64,000 bases of DNA, taken from Parafrankia irregularis. GTDB lineage: Bacteria; Actinomycetota; Actinomycetes; Frankiales; Frankiaceae. The notes under the pieces are model-generated. The model saw nothing but the letters and a program-made list of their open reading frames with translations, did not search any database and was not told the origin of the DNA. The stretch's first letter is position 1. The number at the start of each line of letters is the position of its first letter. Location: the NCBI RefSeq assembly GCF_001536285.1, contig NZ_FAOZ01000001.1, forward strand, positions 124,001 through 188,000, given 5' to 3'. Shown here piece by piece: positions 24,318-49,648 of the stretch. The position numbers and the translations under genes are program-made.

Positions 24318-25019
24318 GTGACAGCGGCAGAACCGTCGGCCTCGGCACGCGGGCGTATGGGCCGCCCGCCCCGCACCTCCCGCGCGGAGATCATGACCGC
24401 CGCCCGTCGCCTGATCGATCGGGACGGCTGGGAGAAGCTGACCATGCGCCGGCTCGCCGCGGAGGCCGGCACCGCGCCGACGACGCTCTACCACCACGTT
24501 CGCGACAAGGACGACCTGCTCACGCAGCTCCTCGACGACTACGCGGCGGGCATGCCCCGCCCGGCCATGCCCGCTGACCCACGCGAACGCGTCATCACGG
24601 CCGCGACGGTCATCCGGGACACCCTGGCCGCCTGGCCGTGGGTCGTCAGCGTGCTCGTCCAGGACGATCAGGTGGGCCGGGCGGCGCTGTGGATGGTCGA
24701 GACGCTGCTCGCCGGGGCAGTCGAGTGCGGCTGCACACCGGAGCAGGCCGTCGACCTGTACCGGACCATCTGGTACTACACCGCCGGCGAGGTACTCGTC
24801 CGCGCGAACCACGACCGTCAGCAGGCAGAGAAGCCCGGAGCGACCCGGCGCGACGCCCTCATCCGCGCGGTCGACGCCACCGAACTGCCGCACCTCGCGG
24901 CGCTCGCGGAGCGCTGGGCCACCCTGGCCAGCCGGGACACCTATGCCCTCGGCCTCCGCAGCCTCGTCGACGGATTCCTCCGGGCCCTACCAGCGGACGG
25001 CGAGCCCGATCACACGTAG
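24318..25019 (+). CDS. TetR-family regulator (TetR_C-type)
   Basis: This is a 233-aa protein. The N-terminal helix-turn-helix RAEIMTAARRLIDRDGWEKL ... TMRRLAAEAGTAPTTLYHHV is complete. The C-terminal ligand domain is of the TetR_C class (AAWPWVVSVLVQDDQVG, TIWYYTAGEVLVRANHD). Start GTG 24318; the ATG at 24357 is a reasonable alternative. Divergent from the cupin-MFS operon, which it most likely represses. Confidence 0.88.
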   Translation: MTAAEPSASARGRMGRPPRTSRAEIMTAARRLIDRDGWEKLTMRRLAAEAGTAPTTLYHHVRDKDDLLTQLLDDYAAGMPRPAMPADPRERVITAATVIRDTLAAWPWVVSVLVQDDQVGRAALWMVETLLAGAVECGCTPEQAVDLYRTIWYYTAGEVLVRANHDRQQAEKPGATRRDALIRAVDATELPHLAALAERWATLASRDTYALGLRSLVDGFLRALPADGEPDHT

Positions 25020-25076: not shown

Positions 25077-25166
25077 ATGGCGCTTCGTGGCGGACTATTA
25101 CGCTCGATCCCGATGGCGCCTCATGGAGACGGTGTGCGACGACGGGCCCGGCGGGACGATCGGTGA
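25077..25166 (+). CDS. 29-aa upstream ORF coupled to the kinase-TIR gene
   Basis: The ATG at 25077 has an excellent ribosome site (AAGGAGG, seven bases upstream) and reads 29 codons (MALRGGLLRSIP ... RRARRDDR). Its stop TGA overlaps the GTG start of the kinase gene (GTGA). The kinase gene itself has only a weak site, so translation of this short basic peptide probably delivers ribosomes to it. Whether the peptide itself acts is unknown. Confidence 0.6.
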   Translation: MALRGGLLRSIPMAPHGDGVRRRARRDDR

Positions 25167-27580
25167 TCGTCGACCGGGACCGGGTGGCCAAGGCCCTGCC
25201 TGGTTATGTTCTGGGTGAGCAGCTCGGGTCGGGGGCGTTCGGGCTGGTACTGGCGGGCACGCACCGGCAGATGGGCCGGCCGGTGGCCATCAAGGTGATG
25301 GAGGCCCGGGGCACCGCGGCGGCCGCGGCCGATTTCGCCGCCGAGGCGCGGGTGCTGGCCAGGCTGGATCATTCACACGTCGTGCGGGTCTACGACTATG
25401 TCGAGGACCACGGCCTGTGCATGGTCGTGATGGAGTTGCTCGCCGGCGGCACGCTGACCGAGCGGCGGGCGACGATGAGCCCCGAGGAGATCTGCGCGGC
25501 GGCGCTGGCGATCGCCGCGGCTCTTGAGCACGCACACCGCCACAAGGTCCTGCACCGCGATATCAAGACAGACAACATCATGTTCGCCGGTGACGGCACG
25601 CTCAAGGTCACCGATTTCGGCATCGCCAAGCTGTTCGACGGGTCGGGGACGACCACCAGCGGCATCGCCGGCACCCCGGCCTACATGGCCCCGGAACAGA
25701 TCGAGGGTGGCCAGCTGGGGCCGTGGACCGATCTGTACGCGCTGGGGATCGTGCTGTACAGCCTGTTCACCGGAAGGCTGCCGTTCGATCCGAAGCTGCC
25801 GCTGCTGTCGCTGCTGGGCCGCCAGCTGGCCGAGCCACCGCCGCCGATGACCGGTGTGGCCGCTCCGTTGGCCGAGGTGGTGTCACGCGCGCTGGCCAAG
25901 TCCCCCGCTGACCGCCCCCCGGACGCGGCCACGTTCGCGCTCGAGCTGGCGTCCGCTGCCACTGCCGTGTTCGGTGTCGGCTGGGCGGCGCGCGGGCGGT
26001 CACCGCTGCATCTCGACGCGACGGTTCGTGCCGCTACCGAGCGTCCGCCCGGGTGGGCGCACTGGGACTTCTTCATCTCCTGTGCCAGCGCCGATCAGGA
26101 CTGGGCGGACTGGGTCGCCTGGGTCCTGGAATCCGCCGGCTACCTGGTTCTGCTTCAGGCACGGGACGGCATCGCAGGGTCGCGGTGGACCGCCGACGTG
26201 CGTGCGGGTGTCGGGCACTGTGCCCGCACGCTGGTCCTCCTCTCCGACTCCTACCTGGAGTCGGAGTTCGAGCAGGCCGGGTGGGGCACCGTGCGCGGCG
26301 CGGATGCGGTGACCCTCGCGCGGACGCTGGTGCAGGTGCGGGTCGAGAACTGTCCCTGCCCGGAGCTTCCCGGCACGATGCCGACTCTCGACCTGTTCAA
26401 CAGCTCCGCCGAGGCGGCACGAACGGCGCTGTTGGAGCGGGCGACCGTCGCTCTGGCCGGGCGGGAGGATCGCGCGGGCCCAGGGGCGTCCGTGTCCCTC
26501 CCGCCGACCAGGGCGATCACCGGGTTCGTGCCCCTGGTACCGCCCCGGCTGCCGGGCACGACCGTCGCGCCGCCGTTCCCGGCGGGGCCCGGACTCCCAC
26601 CGCGGCATTCCTGGGACGACCCGCCGCCACCAGCCGCGATGCCGGCGGACGGAATGCCGGCGGAGGCGACGCCACCGGCCGCAGCACCACCGGCCGCCGT
26701 ACCACGGGCCGCAGTGCCACCGGCCGCCGCGCCACCGGCGGCGGAGTCTGGCCCGCCGGCGGCGGACAGCCGGGCGCCGGAGACGTCCGGGCTGGCGGCC
26801 GACGTCATCCCGGGTGCTCCGGAGCCGTCGGCGGACAGTTCGGGCGCCAGGCCGGGGACCGGTCCGCGGAGCAGGCGAAGGCGGCGGCGACGGCGGCCTG
26901 AGCGCAGGGCCGCCGTCATCGGCGTCGTCGTGCTCGTGCTGACGGTCGTGGTGGGAGCGCTCGCGCTGTCCCGGTATCCCGGGACGTCTCCCACTCGTCC
27001 CACGGCACGCATCTCCCCCGCCGCCTCGGCCGACACCACACTCAGGGCCGAAACGCCCCGGTCGCCGTCGCCGGGTCCGAGCGGACCGGTCTCACCGCCC
27101 ACCGAGGCGACCATCTCGCCCAGCGCTTCCAGCCTGTCCGCCACCTCGAGCACCGGGCCGGCGAACACCGCCACGCGGTCCGCCGCCGCGCAGACCGGCC
27201 CGCACCTGACCTCGTCCTCGATCAACGGGATCAACGGCGGCGACGACACGACACAGGTTCCGGGCTCCGAGGCGGACACCTACTGGGTGGGCGACAACGC
27301 GACCTGTTCCGCTTGGCTGTCCGACAACGGCTCCGGCGCACTCGCGGGAGTGCTCAACACGTCGCTGACCCAGTCCTGCGTCGCCGAACTTTTCCGCAGC
27401 GACGGAATCGCGTACACCTTCTCCGCGTCCTGGGGCGCCAGGAAGACGAACTTCATTCCAGTCGCGGGATACACGATGTGGATCTGCGTGTGGCACGCGG
27501 ATCTCCGGTCCAGCACCGAAATGTGCTCACCTCACTTCGGCATGCGCGGCACAACGCCCGCCAGGCAACCCGGCACCTGA
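25163..27580 (+). CDS. transmembrane Ser/Thr protein kinase fused to a TIR-like domain
   Basis: This is an ~805-aa receptor-like protein. Residues ~14-275 are a Hanks-type kinase: glycine loop LGSGAFGLVLAG, VAIKVMEARG (catalytic Lys), HRDIKTDNIMF near residue 131, DFG near 151, TPAYMAPEQ activation-segment end. All catalytic residues are present. Residues ~300-425 are a TIR-type domain: HWDFFISCASADQDWADWVA, then ESAGYLVLLQARDGIAGSRW, then LVLLSDSYLESEFEQAGWG. A Pro/Ala-rich juxtamembrane linker and a polyarginine stretch precede a single membrane helix (AAVIGVVVLVLTVVVGALAL, ~583-603). The outer C-terminal domain (~200 aa) is Ser/Thr-rich, with four Cys in its last 100 residues. GTG start coupled to a short upstream frame. 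Kinase-TIR fusion points to signalling or abortive-infection-type defence. Confidence 0.85.
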   Translation: MIVDRDRVAKALPGYVLGEQLGSGAFGLVLAGTHRQMGRPVAIKVMEARGTAAAAADFAAEARVLARLDHSHVVRVYDYVEDHGLCMVVMELLAGGTLTERRATMSPEEICAAALAIAAALEHAHRHKVLHRDIKTDNIMFAGDGTLKVTDFGIAKLFDGSGTTTSGIAGTPAYMAPEQIEGGQLGPWTDLYALGIVLYSLFTGRLPFDPKLPLLSLLGRQLAEPPPPMTGVAAPLAEVVSRALAKSPADRPPDAATFALELASAATAVFGVGWAARGRSPLHLDATVRAATERPPGWAHWDFFISCASADQDWADWVAWVLESAGYLVLLQARDGIAGSRWTADVRAGVGHCARTLVLLSDSYLESEFEQAGWGTVRGADAVTLARTLVQVRVENCPCPELPGTMPTLDLFNSSAEAARTALLERATVALAGREDRAGPGASVSLPPTRAITGFVPLVPPRLPGTTVAPPFPAGPGLPPRHSWDDPPPPAAMPADGMPAEATPPAAAPPAAVPRAAVPPAAAPPAAESGPPAADSRAPETSGLAADVIPGAPEPSADSSGARPGTGPRSRRRRRRRRPERRAAVIGVVVLVLTVVVGALALSRYPGTSPTRPTARISPAASADTTLRAETPRSPSPGPSGPVSPPTEATISPSASSLSATSSTGPANTATRSAAAQTGPHLTSSSINGINGGDDTTQVPGSEADTYWVGDNATCSAWLSDNGSGALAGVLNTSLTQSCVAELFRSDGIAYTFSASWGARKTNFIPVAGYTMWICVWHADLRSSTEMCSPHFGMRGTTPARQPGT

Positions 27581-27743
27581 TTTTTCCGGATGGCCGTCTG
27601 GAAGAACCAGAACTCCGAATCGGTCAACCGCGAAGAGCCCCGGATGGTAGCGTCCCGCCGGAGGTATATGTGATCATATATTTGGCATTGGATCACCTCG
27701 CGCGGACGGGACGTCCGGTCTGGCGGCGATCGGGAGTGTGCGG

Positions 27744-29546
27744 ATGAGTCGGCAGCAGCCACGGAGAACCGATGACGGCCAGGAACCCGACCCGCGGCCG
27801 ATGAGTCGTCGCGGCGTCCTGCGGGCGGGCGCCGTCGCCGGTTGGGTGGGTGCCAGCGCGGGTGTCGGCTGGGCGCTGAACGCGGGCGCGGTCCGGTCAT
27901 GGGCCGCGCCGCCCTACCCGGACCTGGTGTTCCACTCCCCGCCGCTGACGCCCTATGTGGACGAGCTGGCGATCCCGCCGGTGGTGACCGGCGACCTGAC
28001 GCTGGCCGCGGCCGAGGGCACTCATCGCTTCCACCGGGACCTCGGCACGGCGCGCACCTGGGGCTACGGCGGGCAGCCCTACCTGGGCCCGACGATCGAG
28101 GTCCAGGCCGGGGTCCCGACGAGGATCGTTCACCAGAACCGGCTCGGGCCGCACATCTACGCCGCGGACGTCGACACCACCCTGGACGGTGCGAGCGACC
28201 TCGACCGCACGTCGCCGCGCACCGTTCTGCACCTGCACGGGGCTCCCAGCCCGCCGGGATCCGACGGCCACCCGATGGCGACGTTCCTGCCGGGCCGTGA
28301 CGTCGTCTACGACTTCCCGAACCGGCTCGAGGCCACCGCGCTGTGGTACCACGACCATGCCATGGGGATCACCCGGCTGAACGTGTGCGCGGGGCTCGCC
28401 GGCATGTGCCTGGTGCGCGACCAGTACGACACCGGCCGGCCGGGTAACCCGCTCGGCCTGCCCAGCGGCGAGTTCGAGGTCCCGCTGGTACTGCAGGACA
28501 AGATGTTCAACGCCGACGGAACGCTCGGTTTCCGCGTCTTCAAGCTGGTCGCCGCCGGCACCTGGGAAGGTGGCATGACCGGCGACACGGTGGTCGTCAA
28601 CGGGGTGGTCAACCCGAACCTCACCGTCGCCCGTGGGCTGTACCGGTTCCGGCTCCTCAACGCCGCGAACCTGCGCACCTACCACCTGTTCTTCGCCGAC
28701 CGGATGCCGTTCTGGGTGATCGGCAACGACGGCGGCCTGCTGAACGCGCCGGTGCGCACCACGGACCTGCACATCGCCGCGGGCGAGCGTTACGACCTGC
28801 TCGTCGACTTCTCGGCGTTACCCCCCGGGACGCAGTGCGAGCTGCGCAACGACGAGGCACCGCCGGCCCAGTCGACGGTCATCGGCGTCGACGTCCTGCC
28901 GCGGGTCATGCGGTTCACCGTCGGTGCGGCCCAGGGGGTGACCGGCGGACCGCCCGCGTCACTGCGCGGCGGCACCGACCAGCCGGCCGTCCTGCCACCG
29001 CTGCCGACGCCGCAGAAGGTGCGTACCGTCACGGTCAGCCAGCTGGTCGCCGTCCGCTGGCCACCGGCCAAGATGACGCTGAACAACCTGCGGTTCCACG
29101 ACACCGACATCGACCGGCCCCGTCAGGGCGCGGTCGAGCAGTGGGACATCGTCAACACCACCGACGACGAACACCCGATTCACCTGCACCTCGTCCAGTT
29201 CCGAATCCTGCACCGGCAGGCGTTCGACGCGACCAGCTATGTGCTGCTCAACCCCCGCCCGGCGCTCGGTACCCGGTGGGCGCCGCCCGTCGGTCCGTTC
29301 ACCCTCGGCCGGCCGGCGCAGCGGCCAGCGGCGTGGGAAGCCGGATGGAAGGACACGGTCCGTGCCCCGAGCAAGATGGTGACCCGGGTCCTCGTGCGCT
29401 TTCCGACCGCGGACGAGCTGGGCTTCGACCCCGATTCGCCCTTCCTCAGCCCGGACGGCGAGACCCTGCAGGGATACGTCTGGCACTGCCACGTTCTCGA
29501 CCACGAGGACGACTGCATGATGCTGCCCTTCCGCGTCGTCGACTGA
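27744..29546 (+). CDS. multicopper oxidase (CotA / bilirubin-oxidase-like), Tat-exported
   Basis: This is a 600-aa secreted oxidase. A twin-arginine signal (MSRRGVLRAGAVAGWVGAS) is near the N-terminus. Four copper-ligand motifs are intact: VLHLHGAPSPP, WYHDHAMGIT, HPIHLHLVQF and GYVWHCHVLDHEDDCMM, giving type 1 and trinuclear sites. The spacing matches CotA-like three-domain laccases. ATG 27744 follows GGGAG; GTG 27738 is possible. Probably oxidises phenolics, bilirubin-like compounds or metals outside the cell, with O2 reduced to water. It appears to stand alone. Confidence 0.92.
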   Translation: MSRQQPRRTDDGQEPDPRPMSRRGVLRAGAVAGWVGASAGVGWALNAGAVRSWAAPPYPDLVFHSPPLTPYVDELAIPPVVTGDLTLAAAEGTHRFHRDLGTARTWGYGGQPYLGPTIEVQAGVPTRIVHQNRLGPHIYAADVDTTLDGASDLDRTSPRTVLHLHGAPSPPGSDGHPMATFLPGRDVVYDFPNRLEATALWYHDHAMGITRLNVCAGLAGMCLVRDQYDTGRPGNPLGLPSGEFEVPLVLQDKMFNADGTLGFRVFKLVAAGTWEGGMTGDTVVVNGVVNPNLTVARGLYRFRLLNAANLRTYHLFFADRMPFWVIGNDGGLLNAPVRTTDLHIAAGERYDLLVDFSALPPGTQCELRNDEAPPAQSTVIGVDVLPRVMRFTVGAAQGVTGGPPASLRGGTDQPAVLPPLPTPQKVRTVTVSQLVAVRWPPAKMTLNNLRFHDTDIDRPRQGAVEQWDIVNTTDDEHPIHLHLVQFRILHRQAFDATSYVLLNPRPALGTRWAPPVGPFTLGRPAQRPAAWEAGWKDTVRAPSKMVTRVLVRFPTADELGFDPDSPFLSPDGETLQGYVWHCHVLDHEDDCMMLPFRVVD

Positions 29547-32436: not shown

Positions 32437-33828
32437 TCAGAGCGGCGTGGTCGCGGTGACCAGCCCCTGGTGGACGAGCACGTCGAACCAGCCGCGCAGG
32501 CTGCCCCCGGATATGAAGTAGGACGCGTCGCTGGCAGGGTCGTAGCTGGGGCCGACCGCGCGGAGGACGGCGGGGCCCCGAAGCCAGCTCCGCACGGCCG
32601 GCGGGGCGGGCGCTCGCAGGTCGAGCAGGTAGTCGGCCGGCGCGGCGGCCGGCGCGAGCGCGGTGTCGGTGAGCTGCGCGGCCGGCGGCGGGACGGCGTA
32701 CCGCTGCAGCGGGTAGCCCGCGTTGACCTCCCCGTGGTCGAAGGTCATGGCGACCGACAGGTACCGGTCGCCGTAGCGGCGCCGCAGGATGCCGCCGGCG
32801 CTCGTCTGCGTCGAGGGCGGGAACGGCGGATAGGAGATGGTCAGCGGGTCACCGCAGGCGCTGTGAACGTTCGAGGCCCAGTAGATCGAGCGTCCGCCGG
32901 TGTACCCGCGCCAGAAGGCGACGGTGTCGGCCATGTAGCGGTCCCGGACGGCCACGGCGGAGGTGGCGTGGTACTCGTGGAAGCCGACGATCGCCTCGGC
33001 GTGCCGCGGGGCGAGCCGTCGCCCGGGGTCGGCGGGAAGGCTGGCGACGAGGTCACGCGCCGCGCGGGCGTGGTCGATGTAGGGCTTCTTGTCCGGCTGG
33101 CCGCGGTACCACGCGATGTGCGGGCCGATGGCGCCGGCCGGCCGGATCACGTCGTAGTGGGCGCTGAGGTCGGCGAGGCGGCGCGGCGCGCGGCGGGCCA
33201 CGTGGTCGGTGACAGCGTCGTAGGCGAGGGCGCGGACCGAGACGACGTCGGCGCCGGCGAACCGCACCGGGTCGGTGGGATGGCGTTCGTTGTACTCCCG
33301 CATCCAGACGAGCAGGTCGAGAATCTCCCGGCACTGCCACGGTGTGCCGGCGTCGGCGAGCAGATCGCGCGGGTCGCCCCGGCCGTGACGGAGGAACTCG
33401 TCGATCTGGATTCCCTTGGTCCAGTCCTCCTCCAGCACCACCGACCGGAAGCCCGCCCGCTCGACCAGGAACCGCACCAGGCGGTGCTTGAGTCCGAGCT
33501 GTTCGTGCGCGCCGTGGGTGGACTCCCCGAGCCCGACGACCGCGACGTCACCGATCATCGTGCGCAGCGGCTCGAGGTCGACGGGCGCGGCGTCGGGCAC
33601 GGTGCTGGCGATGCCGTGCGCGTGACCGCTGATCCACCTGGGGACGGGATCCGGCATGGCGGTCGGCTCGGCCGCGACCGCCGGCCGGGACACACCCGCG
33701 ACGCCGAGTCCCAGGGCGCCACCGCCCACCGCCCGGAGCAGGCTTCGGCGGGACGTGCCGTATGAGTTCGGTTCGGTCGGCACCGGCGTTCTCAACGGAC
33801 GGGTGGCGACGGGACGACGGCAGCACAC
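32437..33828 (-). CDS. erythromycin esterase-family protein with Tat signal
   Basis: This is a 463-aa protein. TSRRSLLRAVGGGALGLGVA is a twin-arginine signal, so it is exported. The family core is intact: VVGLGESTHGAHEQ (Glu102, His105), FRSVVLEEDWTKG and FWRGYTGGRSIYWASNVHSA. The Ere family hydrolyses macrolide lactones by metal-free, His-based chemistry, but most chromosomal members have unknown substrates. GTG 33828 start. It is divergent from a MarR gene, with a perfect inverted repeat between, which suggests repression relieved by its substrate. Confidence 0.85.
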   Translation of the reverse strand: MCCRRPVATRPLRTPVPTEPNSYGTSRRSLLRAVGGGALGLGVAGVSRPAVAAEPTAMPDPVPRWISGHAHGIASTVPDAAPVDLEPLRTMIGDVAVVGLGESTHGAHEQLGLKHRLVRFLVERAGFRSVVLEEDWTKGIQIDEFLRHGRGDPRDLLADAGTPWQCREILDLLVWMREYNERHPTDPVRFAGADVVSVRALAYDAVTDHVARRAPRRLADLSAHYDVIRPAGAIGPHIAWYRGQPDKKPYIDHARAARDLVASLPADPGRRLAPRHAEAIVGFHEYHATSAVAVRDRYMADTVAFWRGYTGGRSIYWASNVHSACGDPLTISYPPFPPSTQTSAGGILRRRYGDRYLSVAMTFDHGEVNAGYPLQRYAVPPPAAQLTDTALAPAAAPADYLLDLRAPAPPAVRSWLRGPAVLRAVGPSYDPASDASYFISGGSLRGWFDVLVHQGLVTATTPL

Positions 33829-35302: not shown

Positions 35303-37741
35303 CTAGGCCGCCGGGCGACCGGTAGCCCCGGGCAGTGCGGCCGGTGGTCCGAACAGCTGTCCCTGTCCGAAGCGGCATCCGTGGCGCGCCAGTGAACGTG
35401 CCTGCTGCCGGCTCTGGACGCCGGTGGCGATGACCGTGAGATCCAGGTCTTCAGCGAAGGCGATCACCGCACGGCGGAGCAGGTCGGCCCGGCCCACGCC
35501 GCCAGGGACACGACCGCCGGGCGAGCTGTCGAACATGAGTATCTCGATGGGCAGCTCGTCAAGCGACAGAAGACTGTTGTGGTTGCCGGCGATGCCGTTC
35601 AGCGCGAGGCGCAGCCCACGGGCGGCACAGGTACGCAGGCTGTCGGCGGCCTGCTCATCGAGGCGCTCCGTTTCCGACAGCCTGAGGACCAGCGCCTGCA
35701 CCGGGAGGTCGGACGCGGCCAACGCCGTCTCGATGTCGGCCGGCAGGTCGCGGGTCGGCCGCGCCACCGACACGCTGACGTAGACGGCGACGTTCTTTCC
35801 TGTCCGCCTTCGGTAGAGGCCGATGTCGTGGCAGGCACGGTCAAGGATCGCCTGTTCGAGCTGGTGGCTCAGCCCTGCGCCGGCCGCTACCGCGACCGTC
35901 CGTTCTCCGGTGAGATGCCCGAGGATCGGGTGACGCCACCGCGCCGAGGCCTGGTAGGCCACCGGGTGACCGTGGGTCAGATCGACGATCGGCTGGTAGA
36001 GAACGTCGAGGACGCCACCCGCGGGATCTCCCCGCAGCACCTGGTGCAGTGCACGGTGCGCGGGCAACGAGCCGCTGTGGGCGACGATGCCGGGATCGTA
36101 GACGACCAGTCGGTCCTTGCCCCGCTGCTTGGCTGCGTACATGGCGAGATCTGCCTGCTGGAGCAGACTCTCGGAGCTGATCGGAGATCCCGGCTCGGCG
36201 ACTGCCAGGCCAAGGCTCACCTGGACGGCGTATGGCTGCCCGGCGAGGCGGCACGGCGCACCGACGGCCGCACGCACCCTCCTGCCGGCCGCCTCGGCGT
36301 CCACGGTCTCGTCCTCCAGGAGGACCGCGAACTCGTCGCCCCCGAGACGGGCAACCGTGTCTGACGGCGGGACGCAGCCGAGCAGCCGCCGAGCGACCAA
36401 CCGCAACAGCTCGTCGCCGACGGAATGTCCCTGGGTGTCGTTGACGGTCTTGAAGTCATCAAGATCACAGAAGAGCAGCGACAGCCGGCCGCGGCTCCGC
36501 CGAGCGACCGCGTGTTCCAGCCGGTCGCCGAACAGGGCACGGTTCGCCAGCCCGGTCAGGGGATCATGGAGCGCCTGGTGGCGCAGCTGTCGACGGCTCT
36601 GCTCAACCCTGTCCAGCAGCCTCATGTTGTCCGCCAAGGTCAGCAGCTGACGGATCAGCACAACGAGCACAAGCAGGAGGACACCGAGTAGCACGCTCGG
36701 TCTGACCTGCGTCTGCGTCGCCATCTGGACGGCCACCAGCACGCCCAGGGCGGCCAGCGGAAGGTACGGGAGGAGCAGTCTCGCCCAGCGGGGGCCCTGC
36801 CCGGCCTGCCAGCCGGCCCAGCGGGCACGCCACCGGACCAGGCCCCCGGGAGCGGATCCGAGACCAACGGCGGCGGGACGGACAGCACGGTCGGTCCGCG
36901 GCCGCGACCGCGGCGGCACGATGCAGGCGAGCCCGATCATCATCGTGCCGACGGTGTTGCTGGCCACCAGTTGCAGGGGCTCCGGCCGGCCGCTCGCGAT
37001 GAAGTACAGCGACACGTGCAGAAGTACGGTGATGGAACCGAGCCCGCCCCCGAGCAGCGCGAATGATTCCCTGCAGCGGGGTCGCCGGAACACCCCGACG
37101 AGCAGAACTGTGATCAGCAGCAGGAAACATCCGAGGCCGAACGCCAGCAGGATTCCGAGCGAGGCCGGCGCCGGTGCCCGCGCGCGCACCAACGGGCCGA
37201 AGACGACCACCCAGCCGAGCAGGCTCAGCGAGCCGACGAGAAGCACCGCGTCCAGTACGGTGACGATCTTCCAACGAGTGCCGTGAGTTCCCGCCGGTTC
37301 GTCCTCCGGCCTGAGCGGGTCGGCAGGGAAGGCGAGCACCGCGGCGATCGACGCTGGAATGTAAGCCAGATAGGCGGGCTCCGTCCCCGACAGCGGCGGC
37401 AAAGGGTTCTGCCCCAGGAACAACGCCCTGACGGATGTGATCAGGAGGCCGATCGCCACGCCGATCCATCCGGTGAGAAGGAGCAGCCTCCAGCGTCGCT
37501 CGGCGCCCCTCGCCCGCCGCGTCGACCAGAGCTCGCAGCCACCCTGGAGCCCCATCGCGGCCATGCCGCCGAGGCCGACGGCCAGATCGGCGACGCGCGA
37601 AGGCAGGACGAAGGGGGCGAGCAGGGCTACGGACGCGACCACCGCGCACACAACGACGATTCGGCGGAACCTGGCCGCGCCGCAGTTCGGCGCTTCCCGC
37701 TCCGGTGCGATACCTCGAGTGAGCTCCGCGTGCGACATCAT
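35303..37741 (-). CDS. membrane GGDEF protein with degenerate EAL domain
   Basis: This is an ~812-aa cyclic-di-GMP enzyme. The N-terminal ~370 residues carry about ten hydrophobic helices. RQLRHQALHDPLTGLANRAL starts the GGDEF domain, with the intact GGDEF motif near residue 467, so diguanylate cyclase activity is likely. The EAL part keeps the frame (YQPIVDLTHGHPVAYQASAR) but the EAL tripeptide is replaced by YQA. The DDFGTG motif is NGIAGN, the K in LKID is lost (EILMFD), and AEGVE reads ATGVQ. Phosphodiesterase activity should be absent, leaving a possible c-di-GMP or protein-binding role. The start is ATG 37741 or 37738, with GGAGAGG upstream. Confidence 0.87.
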   Translation of the reverse strand: MMSHAELTRGIAPEREAPNCGAARFRRIVVVCAVVASVALLAPFVLPSRVADLAVGLGGMAAMGLQGGCELWSTRRARGAERRWRLLLLTGWIGVAIGLLITSVRALFLGQNPLPPLSGTEPAYLAYIPASIAAVLAFPADPLRPEDEPAGTHGTRWKIVTVLDAVLLVGSLSLLGWVVVFGPLVRARAPAPASLGILLAFGLGCFLLLITVLLVGVFRRPRCRESFALLGGGLGSITVLLHVSLYFIASGRPEPLQLVASNTVGTMMIGLACIVPPRSRPRTDRAVRPAAVGLGSAPGGLVRWRARWAGWQAGQGPRWARLLLPYLPLAALGVLVAVQMATQTQVRPSVLLGVLLLVLVVLIRQLLTLADNMRLLDRVEQSRRQLRHQALHDPLTGLANRALFGDRLEHAVARRSRGRLSLLFCDLDDFKTVNDTQGHSVGDELLRLVARRLLGCVPPSDTVARLGGDEFAVLLEDETVDAEAAGRRVRAAVGAPCRLAGQPYAVQVSLGLAVAEPGSPISSESLLQQADLAMYAAKQRGKDRLVVYDPGIVAHSGSLPAHRALHQVLRGDPAGGVLDVLYQPIVDLTHGHPVAYQASARWRHPILGHLTGERTVAVAAGAGLSHQLEQAILDRACHDIGLYRRRTGKNVAVYVSVSVARPTRDLPADIETALAASDLPVQALVLRLSETERLDEQAADSLRTCAARGLRLALNGIAGNHNSLLSLDELPIEILMFDSSPGGRVPGGVGRADLLRRAVIAFAEDLDLTVIATGVQSRQQARSLARHGCRFGQGQLFGPPAALPGATGRPAA

Positions 37742-37901
37742 CCTCTCCGCCTGGGCTCTTCGTCGGCTCCGCCGGCGAGGATCGTGCTGCCAGCCGGACC
37801 GGATCACGCCGGCGAGCCCCCGCCACCACCATCTGACTCAAGGTCAGCATATAGATGCGAACAGCAACAACCTCCACGCTAGTGCAGGAGGTAGAAGTCC
37901 G

Positions 37902-39254
37902 CTAATGCGCCGACCACGATCCTTTCGGGCCGGTCAGGCCACCGGATGGTGCACTTTGCACACCGCGAAGGTCCACAGCGGGCCCGGACATCGCCGCCTT
38001 GGCCTCGCGGTGCGGCCAAGAACTGTGCGGCACCAGTCTCCAGCCCGGTAGCGGGCCGGTCAGCGTGAACCTCGGAGCGGGGGCCGCGACCGGGCCGAAC
38101 CCGCGCAGGGCGGCGGCCGTCAGGTCGATCTCGTCCTGCCAGGCTGCCGGGTCCAGGCCGGCGCGCCCGTCGCCCCAGGATGTCCGCTCGCTGCCCGGAC
38201 CACCGCCGACCGGAACACCACCTACCGGACCACCGCCGGCCGGATCACCGCCGACCGGATCACCGCTGACCAGGGCGGAGGTGTAAAGGCCCAGGCAGGT
38301 GCGGACGTGCTCGGTGAAGGCGGTCAGGACCCGGTCCGTGACATGCGCGCGGACATCCCGCTCGTCGGCGCCGCGGTCGACCGCGTCGATGGCCGCCGCG
38401 GCGAGTACCGCTGTTCGGACAGCCTGCGCGGTCCCGGAACCACTGAGCGGGTCGAACCGGGCGGCGTGGCCGCCCACCGCGATCCAGCCGGGCCCGCAGG
38501 GCGGTTGCCGCAACCGTGGCGCCGCGGGCACCACGACGGCGGCCTCGGGCGGTGCCACGAGCCGGCGTCCCAGCTCCGTCCCGTCCAGGAGCCGGCGCAG
38601 CAACGGCACCGGGTCCGCGACCGGCCCAGGCACCATGGCCTGCACCAGCGCCCGCCGCTGTCCGACCGGTGCCAGGAAGATCCAGGCCGGACCGGCGGCC
38701 ACCAGGTGACTCGCGGCGGCGGACTCGCCCGCCACGAGCCCCACCTCCGCGCTGATCATGTGTCGGCGCCCGATGTGAACCGGACGGCCCCCGGCCGGCC
38801 CCGCCGACGGGTGCCCGGCGGCGATCAGCCACTCGGCCGCCGACGGCGCGGGGCCGGCCGCGGTGAGCCGGACCAGGTCCGGATGGGTCTCGGCCAGCCG
38901 CCTGCCCAGCCGCTGGGCCAGTTGGGCCCCGTCGACCGCCAGACTCGGCTGTTCGAGGGGCTGGTCGGTGCTGGAGCCACCCCACCTGACGTACCGGCAC
39001 CGAATCGGCCAGGCGCCGTCGAACAGACCGCTCCCGCCGTCCCAGACCTCCCGCAGCAGGTCGATGGTCAACTCGTTGAGCACCAGCCAACGCGCCGGCG
39101 GGGACGTCTCTCCCGGTGCCTGGCTGGTGCCGGATGCCCGCTCGGGGTCACCCGGACGCCATCCGGTGACCAGAACGCGGCGGCCCTGCCCGGCGAGCAG
39201 ATAGGCGCAGGTCAGGCCCGCCAGCCCGGCCCCGGTGACGACGGTGTCGGTCAC
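37902..39254 (-). CDS. FAD-dependent monooxygenase-like protein (LodB/QhpG-like)
   Basis: This is a 450-aa flavoprotein. The N-terminal dinucleotide fold TVVTGAGLAGLTCAYLLAGQ has GxGxxG and the usual strand after it (RRVLVTG). GWIAVGGHAARFDPLSGSGT is the second FAD motif (GD-type, here GGHAARFDPLSGSG) of p-hydroxybenzoate hydroxylase/halogenase-type enzymes. A Gly/Pro-rich low-complexity insertion (GDPVGGDPAGGGPVGGVPVG) sits near residue 345. It starts by GTGA overlap with the upstream LodA-C/ferritin-like gene. In CTQ enzyme systems, a flavoprotein of this type (LodB or QhpG) hydroxylates the precursor Trp. I infer the same maturation role here; a free small-molecule monooxygenase is the alternative. 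Confidence 0.75.
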   Translation of the reverse strand: MTDTVVTGAGLAGLTCAYLLAGQGRRVLVTGWRPGDPERASGTSQAPGETSPPARWLVLNELTIDLLREVWDGGSGLFDGAWPIRCRYVRWGGSSTDQPLEQPSLAVDGAQLAQRLGRRLAETHPDLVRLTAAGPAPSAAEWLIAAGHPSAGPAGGRPVHIGRRHMISAEVGLVAGESAAASHLVAAGPAWIFLAPVGQRRALVQAMVPGPVADPVPLLRRLLDGTELGRRLVAPPEAAVVVPAAPRLRQPPCGPGWIAVGGHAARFDPLSGSGTAQAVRTAVLAAAAIDAVDRGADERDVRAHVTDRVLTAFTEHVRTCLGLYTSALVSGDPVGGDPAGGGPVGGVPVGGGPGSERTSWGDGRAGLDPAAWQDEIDLTAAALRGFGPVAAPAPRFTLTGPLPGWRLVPHSSWPHREAKAAMSGPAVDLRGVQSAPSGGLTGPKGSWSAH

Positions 39255-41167
39255 CCCTGGGTCCGGGGCGGTGGCGGCTGGGCCGGCGGGGCGATCGTGC
39301 CGCCTGCGGCGATCGTGCCGGCACCGGCGGCCTGCAGCTCGGCGAGCAGGGCCTCGTGCGCCGCGCCGTGCTGGAGGACGAGCCTGCGCTCCGGCGCGCC
39401 GCCCAGCTCGGCGACGGTCTCCTGGGCGCGGCGGATCCCGGCGGCGTGGTCGGCGACCGGGACGGGCAGGGTGACCGGGACGGGCAGCGCGAAGCGCGGC
39501 TGCACACCGCGTGCCGCGAGCAGGTGGTTCGTCTCGTGCAGGCTGAACATCGCCCGGCGGGCCTGTTCGAGCAGTTGACCGCCGGCCCTGTCCCCCAGTG
39601 CGAAGGTCGCCTGCAGGGCGTTGAGCAGCAGGGCGTAGTTCTGGTCGCTGAGATCGGCCAGGCCCTCGGTGAGCGCGTCGACCGGGTCCGCTCGCAGCGT
39701 GCGCAGGTAGCTCTCCGGTGCGAGCCCGGCGAGGTGGCCCTTGACCAGGCCGAACCGGCGGAAGTGCTCACCCCCCTCGTCGATGATCAGCTTGATGAGG
39801 TGGACGAGCCTGTCCCGCTCGGGGAAGAGATCGGGGCGCGCGTCGATCGTGGTCAGCAGCTGGACGTACATCCCGTCGACGCCCGAGGCCGTTCCCTGGC
39901 TCGGCCGCTCGACCTCGATGAACCAGTCCAGCTGCGCCGGGGTGAGCGGCTCGAGCTGGAACGGCCGGTCGAGCTGGCGGTGGATACGACTGGCCCGCCC
40001 GACGTTCGGCGGCTGGCCGAGCATGGCGAGCGCCTCGTTGACCCAGCGCAGGTGCCGCATCTCGTCGACGGCGATGGAGTAGACCTCGGTGGCCGCGGCG
40101 TGCACGCGGCGGGTGTGCTCGTCCGCGTCGTCGGGCAGCAGCCGGGGCGCGTCGAGCGAGTAGTGCGCGAACAGGTACTCCACCGAGAGGGCGTGTTCGA
40201 CGGTGGCCAGGTAGTTCAGCTCGTCGAGCACCTCCTGGCGGGCCAGCTCGCCGGCGGTCGGCCCCGGCGGCGGTGGCGGCGCGACCCCGGCGGTCTCCCG
40301 GCCGCCCAGCACGACGGCCAGGTCGTTCCAGGCATGGAGCATCTCGGCGTAGTCCAGCTCCTGCTCCCGCCGCCCCGCCTCGGTCGGCAGATCCGCGGGC
40401 GGCGGGACGGCGGTGCGGTCGGCGCGCTGGAAGTTGACGTAGGGAACCTGCCCGTCCGCGCTGGTGACGACGTCGGGTTTGGAGGCCGCCCAGTAGAAGC
40501 AGCCGCAGTCCCGGAAGTCGTACTGCCACGGCGCGCACAGGCTGCGGGTCAGCTCGCCGGGCAGGTAGACCTCGGGGTCGATGACACCCTCGGGGTCGAG
40601 GTAGCGGGCCCGGTCGGCGACCAGGACCGCCAGCACCGTGCCGTCCGGGTCGCGTTGCACGACACTGCGGTCACCGCGGCGGAACCCGTTGAGCGAGCCG
40701 TTCACGACGTCCGCGCCGGGCGAGGAGATCCCGGGCGGCGGGCCGAGCAGGATCGCGATCCGCCCCGGCATGAGGTCGTGCACCAGCCTCCAGACGTCCA
40801 GCCCGCCGAGGTTCGCGCAGCTGAACGTCGGGATGTCCGCCTCGGTCTGGTCTACGGTCGTGCGCCCGCAGACGGCCCACAGGTGCAGGGGCAGGTCCGC
40901 GTCGGTCAGGCCGCGCTCGGCGGCGATGCCGGTGGCGTCGACGGCGCGCAGCACGGCACCGTCCGGGCGGTGGAACTCGAAGGTCAGCCCGGGGAAGAAG
41001 GCCTTGTCCAGGTTGCGCTGGTCGAACTCCAGCCCCGGATAGCAGTTGTCGACGCCGCTCTCGGGACGGGAGGCCGCCGGGTTGCCACGCACGACGTGGT
41101 CCGCCCGCGCCGTCAGGTTTCGGGGGAAGATCTTCCCCGCGGGTGGTCCGGTCACGGGTTCCGTCAC
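39251..41167 (-). CDS. LodA-C-like domain fused to a ferritin-like (VioB/RebD-type) domain
   Basis: This is a 638-aa protein. Residues ~35-240 resemble the C-terminal half of LodA/GoxA quinoproteins: NCYPGLEFDQRNLDKAFFPG, then YLPGELTRSLCAPWQYDFRD and CGCFYWAASKPDVV, comparable to the PWQ-D-C and W-P-RPD motifs of that family. Residues ~310-500 are a ferritin-like diiron helix bundle: NYLATVEHALSVEYLFAHYS and YSIAVDEMRHLRWVNEALAM (Glu and ExxH-type ligands), then DEGGEHFRRF. This matches the ferritin-like domain found in VioB and RebD. Cys42 and Trp214 are the residues I would test as a crosslink pair. GTG start with GAGG upstream, 134 bp after the radical SAM gene. The gene may encode both substrate domain and oxidase. 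Confidence 0.7.
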   Translation of the reverse strand: MTEPVTGPPAGKIFPRNLTARADHVVRGNPAASRPESGVDNCYPGLEFDQRNLDKAFFPGLTFEFHRPDGAVLRAVDATGIAAERGLTDADLPLHLWAVCGRTTVDQTEADIPTFSCANLGGLDVWRLVHDLMPGRIAILLGPPPGISSPGADVVNGSLNGFRRGDRSVVQRDPDGTVLAVLVADRARYLDPEGVIDPEVYLPGELTRSLCAPWQYDFRDCGCFYWAASKPDVVTSADGQVPYVNFQRADRTAVPPPADLPTEAGRREQELDYAEMLHAWNDLAVVLGGRETAGVAPPPPPGPTAGELARQEVLDELNYLATVEHALSVEYLFAHYSLDAPRLLPDDADEHTRRVHAAATEVYSIAVDEMRHLRWVNEALAMLGQPPNVGRASRIHRQLDRPFQLEPLTPAQLDWFIEVERPSQGTASGVDGMYVQLLTTIDARPDLFPERDRLVHLIKLIIDEGGEHFRRFGLVKGHLAGLAPESYLRTLRADPVDALTEGLADLSDQNYALLLNALQATFALGDRAGGQLLEQARRAMFSLHETNHLLAARGVQPRFALPVPVTLPVPVADHAAGIRRAQETVAELGGAPERRLVLQHGAAHEALLAELQAAGAGTIAAGGTIAPPAQPPPPRTQG

Positions 41168-41301
41168 GTTCCAGCCCCTTCCTCGCGCGCCACGCCTCGT
41201 CGGGCGGCGCGTCGGTGTCCGCGCGGCGCACCTGATGGGCGACGCGTCCTGCTCACGCGGCGCACCTGTGTGGTCCGCGCGTCCAGCTCACGCGGCGTCC
41301 G

Positions 41302-42780
41302 TCAGCGGGCGACGGTCGTCGGATCACTGCCGCTGCCGCCATACCCGGGAGACGCCGGCAGTCCCTCGAAGTAGTCGGGGCGCACCGCGGACAGCTCGAC
41401 GTAGGCCCGCAGGCAGAAGGCGAGCCAGCCGCGGATGTAGTCGCACCCGGGCCGCCCGCGCCGGGCCACCTCGTGGTAGCAGCCGCCCCCGCACAGGTAG
41501 CGGGCCCAGCACGACCGGCACGGGCTCATCCGGTCGACGTGGCCGCGGGCCAGATGCTCCGCCCGGGCCGCCTGGTCCGGGCCGGCCGTCACCGAGCCCA
41601 TCGCGAAGCCGGGGTCGTCGACGAGCCGGTGGCAGGCGAACAGGTCGCCGTTCGCGGCCGCGCTGAGATACCCCGCACCCGCGCCGCACGGGTAGGGTCG
41701 GTGGCTGCCCCGGTGAATCTGCGCCATGGCCGTCTCGAAGTTGCCGAACGGGTACCGGCGGCCGGCGGCCAGCTCACGCAACGCCACCTCGCCGCATTCG
41801 ACCATGTGCGCGAGGAACTCCTCGAACTGCGGCCCGGTGAACTCCAGCGCCGGGTCCGGCGACGCGACGACCGCGGCGAACCCGACCTCGTCGAAGCCGA
41901 GGCCGATCACATGGTCCAGGACGTCGAGCAGCCGGCCGCCCGCCGGGGTGACGGTGACCCGCGCGGCGAGATGGCGCGGACGCCCGTGCCGCGCCATCAG
42001 GTCGAGCCCGGCACGCACCCGGTCGTAGGCGCTGGCCCCACCGGGCAGCCGGCGCAGCGCGTCGTTGCGGTCCCGGTCGCCGTCGAGGCTCACCGAGACG
42101 GCGAAGGGATACCGGGCGAAAAGGCGGGCGTCCGCGGGGCGCAGCTCGGTCAGGTTCGTGGTGAGGGAGAAGCGCGCCCGGCGCCCGGCGGCCTCGGCCG
42201 CCCGGGCAGCGTAGGCGGTGACCTCGTGCACGAGGTCCGCGGCGAGCAGCGGCTCGCCACCCATGAACCCCACGACCACGTCGGCGCCCGGCCGCGACTC
42301 GGCGAGGAGACGATCGACCGCGGCGAAGGCGACCTCGCGCGGCATCATCCGGGCCGCGCCGCCGAAGCGGCCCTCGTCCGCGTAGCAGTAGGCGCACGAC
42401 ATGTTGCACGCCTGCATGACGTTCAGAGAGAGGGCTGACAGCGGCGGCGGGTCGATCGGGCGGCCGTCGATGCGCCTGGACGCGCCGGGCTCCAGCCCCA
42501 GGGCGGCGCGCGCGCCGGGCCCGAGCTCGCTCGCATCATCCGAGTCCAGCCAGGACCGCACCTGCCCCTCGACGTCACCGGGCAGGTCGTAGACCCGGCT
42601 GCCGTCCACCACGAACAGGTGTGCCCCGTGCGCGCTGTGGAACAGGCGCGCCTCGGCGGCGGCGCCCGGCACCACGCCCGGGACCGCGCCCGGCACGGGC
42701 TGGTCGGCCGGCTCGGAGTGCCCGCCCGGGGTCGGGTCCGGGTCCGGCGGGCGGCGGCCGATCTGCAGCAGGACCGTCAC
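41302..42780 (-). CDS. radical SAM / SPASM-domain protein maturase
   Basis: This is a 492-aa protein. The N-terminal ~90 residues look like a peptide-recognition extension (RLFHSAHGAHLFVVDGSRVY). The radical SAM cluster motif CNMSCAYCYADEG is near residue 125, with GFMGGEPLLA and SVSLDGDRDRNDALRR as expected for anaerobic-maturase-type enzymes. The C-terminus has many Cys (YPCGAGAG, FACHRL, CRSCWARYLCGGGCYHE, GCDY, FC), i.e. a SPASM region for two auxiliary Fe-S clusters. The closest functional analogue by reading is QhpD, which makes intraprotein thioether links in a quinohemoprotein subunit. GTGA overlap with the LodA-N-like gene couples the two, so that protein or the LodA-C/ferritin protein is the likely substrate. 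Confidence 0.88.
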   Translation of the reverse strand: MTVLLQIGRRPPDPDPTPGGHSEPADQPVPGAVPGVVPGAAAEARLFHSAHGAHLFVVDGSRVYDLPGDVEGQVRSWLDSDDASELGPGARAALGLEPGASRRIDGRPIDPPPLSALSLNVMQACNMSCAYCYADEGRFGGAARMMPREVAFAAVDRLLAESRPGADVVVGFMGGEPLLAADLVHEVTAYAARAAEAAGRRARFSLTTNLTELRPADARLFARYPFAVSVSLDGDRDRNDALRRLPGGASAYDRVRAGLDLMARHGRPRHLAARVTVTPAGGRLLDVLDHVIGLGFDEVGFAAVVASPDPALEFTGPQFEEFLAHMVECGEVALRELAAGRRYPFGNFETAMAQIHRGSHRPYPCGAGAGYLSAAANGDLFACHRLVDDPGFAMGSVTAGPDQAARAEHLARGHVDRMSPCRSCWARYLCGGGCYHEVARRGRPGCDYIRGWLAFCLRAYVELSAVRPDYFEGLPASPGYGGSGSDPTTVAR

Positions 42781-44192
42781 GTGCCCTGCTCGATGTCCCG
42801 CCGCAGCGCTGCGCTCCAGGCCCGGAGCAGGTCGTACTGCCGTCGGGTGAGGTGCATGGGATGGCGGTCGGAGCCGCGCATCAGCGCCGGCATGCGGCGG
42901 TCGTAGTAGCGCTCGCTGGTCGCCGGCTCGCGCACAACCGTGGGGAGCAGGTCAGGCCGCTCCCGCAGCAGGTCCTCCAACACCTCCAGAGCCAGGAACC
43001 TGCGGTGGCGTGCCCGGGCCGCCTCTGTCAGCGGGAACGGATGTTCGGTCAACGGCTCGGCCGCCGGGAATGCCCGGTCCCGGGCCGCTGCCTCCGGTTC
43101 CCCCCGGCTGCGCGCGATCGCGAGGTTCTCGAAACGGGCGCGGCCGTTCTGGGCGTCGACGTTCACCGTGGCGACCGTCTCGAGGATCCGCTCGAACAGG
43201 TCGCGGACCTCCAGGGTGGTGCGGGCGGCGTCCGCCACGTACGCGGGGTCGCGGACGTCGGCGCGCCGGACCCGGTCGGTCAGGCCGTCCGCGGCCGAGG
43301 TGAACGGGCGCTGGTCGGGCACGAAGTCCGGCGGACCGACGACGATGCGTGCCACCGCGCTCAGCTCCGCCGGCTGACCCGGGCCCGCCGGCAGGAGGAC
43401 CCGCACCGTGCCGTCACAGACGTCGTCGACGAGCCCGAGACCGGCGTTGCCCTCCGCGCCCGCGAACAGCCCGCCCGGGTTGGTCCGCGGGTCGTCTCCG
43501 CCCAGCGCGAAGCCGACCCAGGGCGACTGCGGGCTGAGGACGAGCCGGTCCGCGGGCAGGACGTAGTCGCTCGTGCGGTTCGGGAGGTCCGTCGGCCCGT
43601 ACACGGCGCCGACGGCCGGGGTGAACCGCAGGCGTAGCTCCGGCAGCTCGGCGCTGGGCCTGGTCAGCTGCACACTGCCCAGCGGGACGCGGCTACCGGC
43701 GGGCACCAGCGGCGCCGCGGACCCCGCGGGCGAGCGCCCGTCGAGCGCCCGGCGCCCGGTGTCGTCCCCGGCGATGCTCACCGTCGCGACGATCCGGTCG
43801 TCGTCGACCTGGGTGTAGTGGTGCGGCTTGAGGTTGGCGACCTCGACCTCCCAGCGCACATCGCCGAGGGCGATGCCGGCGGCGGCGAGGACCTCGGCGG
43901 TGATCGGCCCCTCGTGGGTCACGCCGTCGGCCGTCCAGGCGCCGTGCAGTTCGAAGAACGGGCACACCGGGCGGAAGCCGGCGGCGTCCTTGAACGTCAC
44001 CGTCGCGGGCTGCCGGAGGGTGACCGTCCCGTCCTCGGCGACGTCGAGCGTCTCGGCCGGCTGGACCGTCGTGCGGCCGGTGCCCCGCGACGACAGGTCA
44101 TTGGGCCCCCAGACGTAGTTGTCACAGGGAGTGGGGGACGGGCCCAGCCGCCCGTAGGCGAGCGGCGGATACAACCACAGCCGGTCGATCAC
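42777..44192 (-). CDS. LodA N-terminal-like protein
   Basis: This is a 471-aa protein. VIDRLWLYPPLAYGRLGPSP and DNYVWGPNDL at the N-terminus parallel the opening of LodA/GoxA proteins (P-IGIARVGNSP, then GPE). TFKDAAGFRPVCPFFELHG matches their FKD-G-IKRQAARFRIFG segment. The rest is beta-rich, with a helical C-terminal ~120 residues (RRFLALEVLEDLLRERPD ... LMRGSDRHPMHLTRRQYDLL); RHPMHLTRRQYDLLRAW also recalls LodA (P--LT--QY--L--W). GTG 44192 is supported by AGGAGA six bases upstream; an in-frame ATG at 44396 is not. It is the first gene of the four-gene operon. Splitting of LodA into two proteins is inferred from the partner gene at 39251. Confidence 0.7.
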   Translation of the reverse strand: MIDRLWLYPPLAYGRLGPSPTPCDNYVWGPNDLSSRGTGRTTVQPAETLDVAEDGTVTLRQPATVTFKDAAGFRPVCPFFELHGAWTADGVTHEGPITAEVLAAAGIALGDVRWEVEVANLKPHHYTQVDDDRIVATVSIAGDDTGRRALDGRSPAGSAAPLVPAGSRVPLGSVQLTRPSAELPELRLRFTPAVGAVYGPTDLPNRTSDYVLPADRLVLSPQSPWVGFALGGDDPRTNPGGLFAGAEGNAGLGLVDDVCDGTVRVLLPAGPGQPAELSAVARIVVGPPDFVPDQRPFTSAADGLTDRVRRADVRDPAYVADAARTTLEVRDLFERILETVATVNVDAQNGRARFENLAIARSRGEPEAAARDRAFPAAEPLTEHPFPLTEAARARHRRFLALEVLEDLLRERPDLLPTVVREPATSERYYDRRMPALMRGSDRHPMHLTRRQYDLLRAWSAALRRDIEQGT

Positions 44193-45151
44193 CCGGGTCT
44201 CCTGTTCTCCGTTTCCGCGCTTTCCGTTCCCTGCTGCCACGCGCACCCGTTCGGGTGGTCGATGCCGGTGACAGCGGATGATTCCGTGCATACCACACGG
44301 GAATCCGATGCCGTCACCGGATTTCGGCCATTCATCGATGTTCCCTGATGTTCCCTGGTGATTCCGATGCCCGCCGACATGGCGTGTCCGTTTCATCCCG
44401 AAGGTTCATTCCGCACGTCATCATCCCGCCGGCCACGGCAATCCCGAACTCCGGGCCGGACGACAGTACGGTGGTCTGAAAGCGAGATCGTTCGCGGTCA
44501 CATGTATCACACCGACGCCGTCGGTCACCACCCCGGGCCGCGCCGCCACGCGGGCGGCTGTCGGCTCCCGGACAATGCGTGGTTCCAGCGGTCGCCAGCC
44601 TCTTCCCGTGCGAGGATCAGCCCGCCCCACAGGCGATGTCGACCGGATGAGAGACGCAGGTGCCCGTCGTGTTCGGGCCCCGGCGGTCTCGACGACCTCG
44701 CCTCCGCACCAGGCCACGCAGCCGCCAGGAACACGGCCCTGACGGCTTTCTTCGAGCAGGCAATCGTCCGAGCAGGCAATCGTCAGAACCGAACAGTACG
44801 TCGGTCGCGGCGACAGCCAGTTCTTCAATCCTGCACGCATCGACCCAGCGCCCCGGCGGCCCGGCGGCCCGGGGAGGTCAAAGGCCGTGACGGTTTTCCC
44901 GACAGCCTGCTCGACGGCACACACGGGGCCCAGGGTCACCAGCTGGCCGAACAGCTACCGGGCGGCCTGGTCGGCGACCGCAGGAAGCCACGGGGGGCGT
45001 CCGTGACGCCCCATACTCAACAGACCCGAGCGTCGCGCGGCCGAGCCGTCGAGCTCAGAGTGGCAGCGGTCCGGAGTACACCGCGCGCTTGTCTGTCACC
45101 CCAACCGGCGACAGCGAGGTACATCGACACCCATCCGGATAGGTTGTTCGC
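44193..45151. other. ~960-bp region without a recognised gene
   Basis: Open frames exist on both strands (for example 44421-44939 minus) but their translations are Arg/Pro/Ser-rich, match no family I know, and lack good ribosome sites. It should hold the promoter of the LodA-like operon at its left end and of the membrane-protein gene at its right end. A 16-bp tandem duplication is at 44753-44784. Confidence 0.5.
44753..44784. repeat. perfect 16-bp tandem duplication
   Basis: CGAGCAGGCAATCGTC occurs twice in direct abutment (44753-44768, 44769-44784), in a region without genes. It could be a recent slippage duplication or a paired binding site. Confidence 0.75.
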
Positions 45152-46468: not shown

Positions 46469-46669
46469 GCGACGCGGCCCCGTTGGGCCGGCTCGAGTCC
46501 GCGAGCGCGCGGCCGGCAGGTTCCCCGCCTCACCGACGAGCGGAATCCCCCGGCATCCGACAGGCGGGCCGGCAGGCGCGGTGTCAGGATCCGGCTCAGG
46601 GGAGTCGGCCCGGTGCTCCCTGCGGCCTGGCGGGTTGCGACCGTCCCGCCGATCAGGGGCGGCCGCAGG

Positions 46670-48103: not shown

Positions 48104-48252
48104 TCGGCGGCCGGCTCCAAACGCGTTCCGGATCACTGTGATCACTGGCGGGCTGCGGCCCGGTCGGCGGTGAGACGCCATGACCGGGCCGCGCGAACCT
48201 GCCGAGCCGGACCCCTGCGCGATGGCAGAACTCGGAGGGCGGACTTCGCCAG

Positions 48253-49248: not shown

Positions 49249-49449
49249 CCTGGGCGAAGTCCTCTCCGATGAGGGATCGCTCGGCGCCAGGCTCAGACGG
49301 GCGCCGCGCTGGCCTTTCCAGTCTCCACCTCCACGTGGGCCCCAGGTCAAGCCCAGCACGGCCGTCAGCATCGGTGGCCACGTCAGGAAGGCATTTCCCG
49401 CAGCGGTACGCGGCTTGACCCTGCCGCTCCGGAGGAATTGAGTTGGGCC

Positions 49450-49640: not shown

Positions 49641-49648
49641 ACCGGCGA

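Follow-up and report, generated by a model that had tools for sequence, protein, structure and literature searches.

Receptor kinases of the PknB/PknA type in actinobacteria combine an N-terminal Hanks-type kinase, one membrane helix and a small outer part. TIR domains, in turn, are either enzymes that cleave NAD+ or protein contacts, and in animals the TIRs of MyD88 and the TLRs relay to IRAK-type kinases. The protein described here has the general layout of the first group, from which it differs in the absence of a PASTA outer domain and in the presence of a TIR between the kinase and the membrane. It resembles the TIR NADases (AbTIR and others) in having a TIR recognized by sequence profile; unlike them, it has Gly in the place of the catalytic Glu and carries, in the same chain, a kinase that looks active and a membrane helix. 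With the MyD88/TLR-IRAK systems it would share a TIR contact module beside a Ser/Thr kinase output, but here the two lie in one bacterial polypeptide and there is no evidence of common descent.

The sections considered here of a TIR survey (PMC7075850) use Ser/Thr63, Tyr/Phe66 and Glu75 as landmarks and state that a subclass of TIRs depends critically on Glu75 for NADase activity; according to the same sections, this residue occurs at low frequency (<10%) in MyD88 and endosomal TLRs, and its frequency need not follow the reported enzymatic activity. One plant TIR group is assigned to protein kinases in the Discussion of that paper and is given elsewhere in it as TIR plus NTPase; it differs from the present protein in belonging to plants, and the sections considered describe no such membrane receptor layout for it. 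Among the listed titles and selected passages of the open-licence PMC literature, we found none describing a receptor kinase of bacteria in which a TIR separates the kinase from the membrane. Within these passages, TIR and kinase domains are treated in bacterial conflict systems (PMC7159879), where the present arrangement was not found, and kinase and TIR-like domains appear among cyanobacterial variable proteins (PMC7517822); TIR as a whole word is absent from PMC11032199.

The window, i.e., the whole stretch of DNA that was analysed, comprises 64,000 nucleotides of the Parafrankia irregularis genome (9.54 Mb in 82 contigs). The features of the gene are the following:

25163-27580, + strand: whole gene, 805 aa, in the order kinase, TIR, linker, membrane helix, four-cysteine outer domain (open reading frame, Pfam; start kept in relatives)
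25205-25966, + strand: Hanks-type Ser/Thr kinase domain, aa 15-268 (Pfam E 1.8e-50; all catalytic motifs; nearest solved chains PknA/PknB)
25553-25576, + strand: catalytic loop HRDIKTDN (motif reading)
26063-26464, + strand: TIR domain, aa 301-434 (TIR_2 E 1.8e-21; alignment of Frankiaceae TIRs)
26465-26872, + strand: Pro/Ala-rich linker (translation)
26873-26896, + strand: eight arginines, a membrane-proximal positive charge (sequence reading)
26909-26968, + strand: single membrane helix, aa 583-602 (hydropathy maximum)
26969-27262, + strand: Ser/Thr/Pro-rich stalk (translation)
27263-27547, + strand: outer domain with four conserved Cys at 715, 739, 775 and 788 (alignment; 19 loci in 13 of 35 Frankiaceae genomes; no Pfam family)

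The start codon of the gene is GTG. The reading frame is open upstream as far as 24638, and the GTG at 25163 was preferred because relatives share the start-codon position there, the family members beginning at the same (V/M)I(V/F)D position. Just upstream of it, at 25100-25162 (+), the in-frame reading resembles that of the relatives L032 and L034 and contains no in-frame start codon; this stretch may be a leader or promoter that has been conserved.

An intact Hanks-type kinase, a TIR-like domain, one membrane helix and a Cys-containing outer domain had been recognized in this polypeptide by a previous sequence-only reading, and Pfam, motifs and hydropathy agree with that description. The kinase scores above the Pfam cut-off (Pkinase, aa 15-209; PK_Tyr_Ser-Thr, aa 17-252), possesses all the expected motifs (GSGAFG, VAIK, HRDIKTDN, DFG, and APE) and is thus a Hanks-type Ser/Thr kinase, its best solved-structure matches by sequence being PknA/PknB with E about 4e-34. 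The protein does not belong to the PASTA receptor kinases (PknB/Stk1), scoring 216.5 against a cut-off of 450 with the NCBIfam model PknB_PASTA_kin. The TIR_2 match covers aa 303-422 with 77.3 bits (cut-off 28), and the domain is accordingly a TIR. The helix corresponds to the one strong hydrophobic segment (best 19-residue mean hydropathy 3.0); since the basic residues of the arginine run precede it on its N-terminal side, the kinase and the TIR should be cytoplasmic and the C-terminus should lie outside. The four Cys of the outer domain are invariant in the nine aligned sequences, the window protein included. None of the three outer domains searched matched a Pfam family up to E 10, and the short alpha-amylase matches obtained among solved structures (E 0.14-0.16) were rejected as an identity for the domain.

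The search with the outer domain, which retrieved the 19 Frankiaceae loci, did not find it in any of the 395 other sampled Actinomycetota genomes (11 candidates scored per genome). Five loci contain a TIR and 13 lack it, the remaining one (L094) being truncated at a contig end ahead of the expected TIR position and therefore left out of both counts. The TIR-less relatives, one of which (L091) comes from the same genus as the window gene, retain the kinase, the helix and the outer domain. We refer to these proteins, defined by a kinase, a helix and an outer domain with four Cys, as the Frankiaceae four-cysteine receptor kinase family, to which the window protein belongs. Two of the five TIR-bearing members are encoded by the window genome (G000), two by a genome of the same genus (G020, apparently Parafrankia sp. 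EUN1f) and one by a third genome (G017). The EUN1f orthologue (L032) is 93% identical to the window protein over the full length, and a paralogue in the window genome (L016, the same locus as L104) has the whole arrangement, with 52% identity over kinase and TIR.

The sequence-only reading had suggested looking for this architecture in other actinobacteria. Among the matches listed, it occurs in three of the 35 Frankiaceae genomes, all from one genus, of which these are three of six genomes, and in none of the 395 other Actinomycetota genomes sampled, where the 6 best candidates per genome were considered at E 1e-52, a setting at which other spacings, such as that of L105, would be missed. In the phylum sample, at a strict threshold, the fused pattern was seen only in the window genome. 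Five partial-span matches in other genomes, among those listed, are TIR frames in which the kinase profile of the family found nothing at 1e-3, and two scans of viral contigs for further TIR relatives confirmed none. Of 72 distinct TIR domains in the fetched loci, most of which reach 1.5 kb on each side of the TIR and would therefore miss more distant kinases, six share an open frame with a kinase: those of the five family members and that of L021/L105.

This sixth protein, encoded on contig C34 of the window genome (L105:1466-4294, +; also L021), likewise embeds a TIR, an active-looking kinase and an outer domain; there, however, the TIR is N-terminal and is followed by the Hanks kinase, a membrane helix and an outer domain of the NMT1_3 solute-binding type. 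A separate TIR gene (L102:5898-6827, +) is located about 1.9 kb downstream of the G017 kinase-TIR gene. The window genome harbors 32 TIR_2 matches; in a sample of the class, the number is 11-28 for 10 of the 11 Frankiaceae listed and at most four for every other genome listed (27 best candidates scored).

Three positions of the TIR deserve attention:

26162-26164, + strand: BB-loop Arg334 in place of Trp, which is found in 41 of 43 TIRs (alignment column)
26270-26272, + strand: Glu370, three residues before the catalytic position (alignment column, motif positions)
26279-26281, + strand: Gly373 (codon GGG) at the TIR catalytic Glu position (alignment columns; PMC7075850 landmarks)

The alignment was built from 58 matches, of which 43 Frankiaceae TIRs were kept (distinct, at least 110 aa, E 1e-30 or better). 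The catalytic column of helix C contains Glu in 38 of them, Gly in two (the window protein and L032), Ser in two (L017 and L019) and Gln in one (L012). Both Ser-containing sequences are TIR proteins from the same genome as the window gene. When the 72 distinct TIRs were aligned to a profile, Glu was found in 61 and another residue in 11, the Gly assigned to L021 in this set depending on the alignment. Counting from Ser361 and Tyr364 of the window protein, position 75 of the survey (in the sections of PMC7075850 considered) again falls on Gly373. The profile of the 43 TIRs matches, across the catalytic stretch, the PDB chains of the NAD(+) hydrolase AbTIR, of the TIR protein 3h16 and of TLR TIRs; the residue-by-residue view covers the five best chains, with AbTIR outside these. 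In AlphaFold predictions, the isolated TIR, modelled without an alignment, had a pLDDT of 37.7, and the full protein with six relatives had a mean of 44.2, nearly all of the TIR being below 50; both models of the TIR are thus too unreliable to show an active-site geometry.

The sequence-only reading had placed the candidates for the catalytic Glu in the segment SYLESEFEQAGW. The glutamates of this string occupy survey positions 68, 70 and 72, the last one being Glu370, and the catalytic position is the Gly of the string rather than any of its Glu. Conservation of the putative catalytic Glu, on which the same reading had made its proposal depend, does not hold for this protein, whose Gly373 contrasts with the prevailing Glu of the alignment. 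The window protein thus lacks the catalytic Glu in helix C that marks a TIR NADase, and its TIR has probably lost the ability to cleave NAD+ in the usual way. Out of the two possibilities raised earlier, a signal-triggered NADase or a scaffold, the former is not supported, given the missing Glu, and the latter may hold.

One may still suppose that the kinase or the outer domain activates the TIR, which would then deplete NAD+ or produce a cyclic ADP-ribose signal, possibly through Glu370. The strong TIR_2 match would be in line with this, as would the Glu kept at the catalytic position in the paralogue L016 and in the relatives L033 and L040. Moreover, the canonical YGxxEW reads FEQAGW in the window protein, so that a Glu lies about one helical turn earlier; the corresponding column contains Gly in 34 of the 43 TIRs, and Glu only in the window protein and in L032. 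This Glu could conceivably replace the lost one, which would speak against a non-catalytic TIR. On the other hand, the two orthologues share both changes, having Gly instead of the catalytic Glu and Arg instead of the BB-loop Trp, and we know of no recorded rescue of a TIR NADase by a shifted Glu. An NADase output hence appears highly improbable, and weaker than the idea of a leftover TIR discussed below.

As to the origin of the fusion, trees were built after the removal of five duplicate loci. The kinase tree (18 rows) places the five members with a TIR in both main clades; a single clade for them was rejected (AU p 1.4e-5), and the tree requires three changes or more. In the tree of the 43 TIRs, the five kinase-linked TIRs form one clade (95/92). 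The ratio of TIR to kinase distance ranges from 2.4 to 3.4 over all ten pairs (point values without intervals), being 2.9-3.4 between the two clades and 2.4-3.0 within them (3.0 for the window protein and L032, 2.4 for L016 and L033). A recent swap of TIRs between paralogues is disfavoured, since the TIRs would then be relatively closer than the kinases, which these ratios do not show.

Traces of the domain were also sought in the TIR-less relatives. In L096 and L097, a stretch of DNA closely following the kinase region can be aligned with the last part of the window TIR, and a multiple alignment sets the same piece of L034 (the same locus as L096) at the TIR end. The 13 TIR-less linkers were then compared with the tails of 25 other TIRs, picked by eye from 46 and excluding kinase-TIRs, out-of-register tails and near-duplicates; the p-values were 0.0025 for L092, 0.012 for L096, 0.037 for L089 (whose match does not lie at a GR motif), 0.055 for L097 and above 0.1 for the other nine, and only L092 survives a simple correction for the 13 tests.

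The single TIR clade, the steady TIR:kinase ratios and, with weak statistics, the TIR-tail-like pieces favour an old kinase-TIR fusion that would have been repeatedly lost and retained in three of the six genomes of the genus. Alternatively, the TIR might have been acquired separately by the two kinase clades through recombination between paralogues inside Parafrankia, without any ancestral fusion. All five TIR-bearing members, among the matches listed, do come from one genus, and their kinases fall in two clades while their TIRs fall in one, as this alternative would predict. Nevertheless, a recent transfer should bring the TIRs closer than the kinases, and the between-clade ratios resemble the within-clade ones; the tail-like pieces in L096, L097 and L092 (of which that of L092 withstands the correction) point to loss as well. 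We therefore regard separate acquisition as rather unlikely, although it retains some weight beside the old fusion.

In the light of these data, the window protein is probably a receptor-type Ser/Thr kinase whose output would be phosphorylation, with the TIR acting as a non-catalytic contact module. According to this model, the four-cysteine outer domain would bind, or be altered by, something outside the membrane; this event would cluster the protein through its single helix, and clustering would switch on the inner kinase, the motifs of which are observed and the activity of which is presumed. The TIR between kinase and membrane would represent an old, co-inherited contact surface that may pair receptor chains or recruit other TIR proteins; possible partners exist, as judged from the 32 TIR_2 matches of the genome. 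The kinase output finds support in the intact motifs and in a strong constraint, the omega value between the window protein and L032 being 0.14 for the kinase, against 0.52 for the TIR, 0.63 for the linker (taken over aa 435-699) and 0.32 for the outer domain. The essential output of the family cannot lie in the TIR, since the 13 out of 18 assessable members that lack it keep kinase, helix and outer domain. The loss of the Glu, the persistence of the TIR and its dispensability in relatives together argue for a contact or regulatory role; the Gly of the window protein and of its EUN1f orthologue, set against the Glu of L016, L033 and L040, supports a non-catalytic domain in particular.

The main rival explanation is a plain kinase receptor whose TIR would be heading for deletion, a fate that it apparently met in relatives. 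The frequent absence of the domain from the assessable members agrees with it, and so do the tail-like remnants in L096, L097 and L092, the joint loss of the catalytic Glu and of the BB-loop Trp, and the TIR omega, whose point value is near that of the linker. This omega, however, derives from eight nonsynonymous and seven synonymous codons, with a 5-95% range of 0.19-1.44 that does not separate constraint from drift; the value for the Glu-bearing pair L104-L033 is 0.30. We then counted the departures from the majority residue at 41 conserved columns (at least 85% one residue), read for eight of the 43 rows. The window TIR departs at five of them (alignment columns Tyr7, Trp34, Glu73, Ala77 and Leu103), L016 at seven, L033 and L040 at eight each, and three standalone TIRs at none. 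Taken together, the kinase-TIRs have diverged from the standalone TIRs, and the drift of the Glu-less one does not exceed that of the others, which argues mildly against a leftover TIR. Furthermore, the window TIR has no stop and no frame break, and the TIR:kinase ratio of the Glu-less pair (3.0, without interval) is not clearly raised over that of the Glu-bearing pair (2.4) and falls within the overall range. The domain, with its 77.3 bits, thus exhibits no visible decay, and a leftover TIR seems unlikely to us.

A bolder possibility is that the protein is a one-chain bacterial counterpart of the TLR-IRAK relay. In such a scheme, a signal would cluster the receptor, the dead TIR would nucleate a membrane TIR assembly drawing in catalytic TIRs (including that of the paralogue L016), the kinase would gate the assembly by phosphorylation, and NAD+ would be cleaved in trans. 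We consider this scenario very unlikely.

Glu-bearing and Glu-less TIRs occur in the same kinase frame, and this small receptor family may represent both TIR roles, cleavage and contact. The TIR-less relatives are natural deletion controls, with which the contribution of a TIR to a bacterial receptor kinase can be tested directly.

Concerning the neighbourhood, the kinase-TIR gene is preceded by a TetR regulator (24318-25019) and followed by a multicopper oxidase (27738-29546). None of eight neighbours matched the PADLOC models at 1e-5, so the genes around the receptor do not constitute an anti-phage defence system known to these models. Over the 19 loci, compared with unequal flank lengths, an ABC transporter ATPase group was found in five, seven groups in three (some of them overlapping frames) and 89 groups in two, and no neighbour gene is consistently shared outside the receptor gene. 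A defence island was rejected on both grounds, and the locus is without sign of a defence operon. The kinase-TIR protein has 38 PADLOC matches of its own (PD-T4-6, mad6 and others); for the 25 listed, the best stretch falls between aa 6 and 325, in nearly all cases inside the kinase, and the matches were discarded as a sign of defence since they reflect the kinase.

Elsewhere in the window, on the minus strand, the region 39251-54305 embeds a ferritin-like protein, a radical SAM protein and four large ORFs, and is possibly a biosynthetic cluster. The four ORFs, some of which may not be genes, are the following:

42777-44396, - strand: large ORF without a Pfam match at 1e-5
45017-48181, - strand: large ORF without a Pfam match at 1e-5
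50482-51963, - strand: large ORF without a Pfam match at 1e-5
51960-54305, - strand: large ORF without a Pfam match at 1e-5

The same strand harbors a gene for a GGDEF-EAL protein of cyclic-di-GMP signalling (35303-37807) and one for a predicted protein of the Erythromycin-esterase family (32437-33828; Pfam 1.4e-55).
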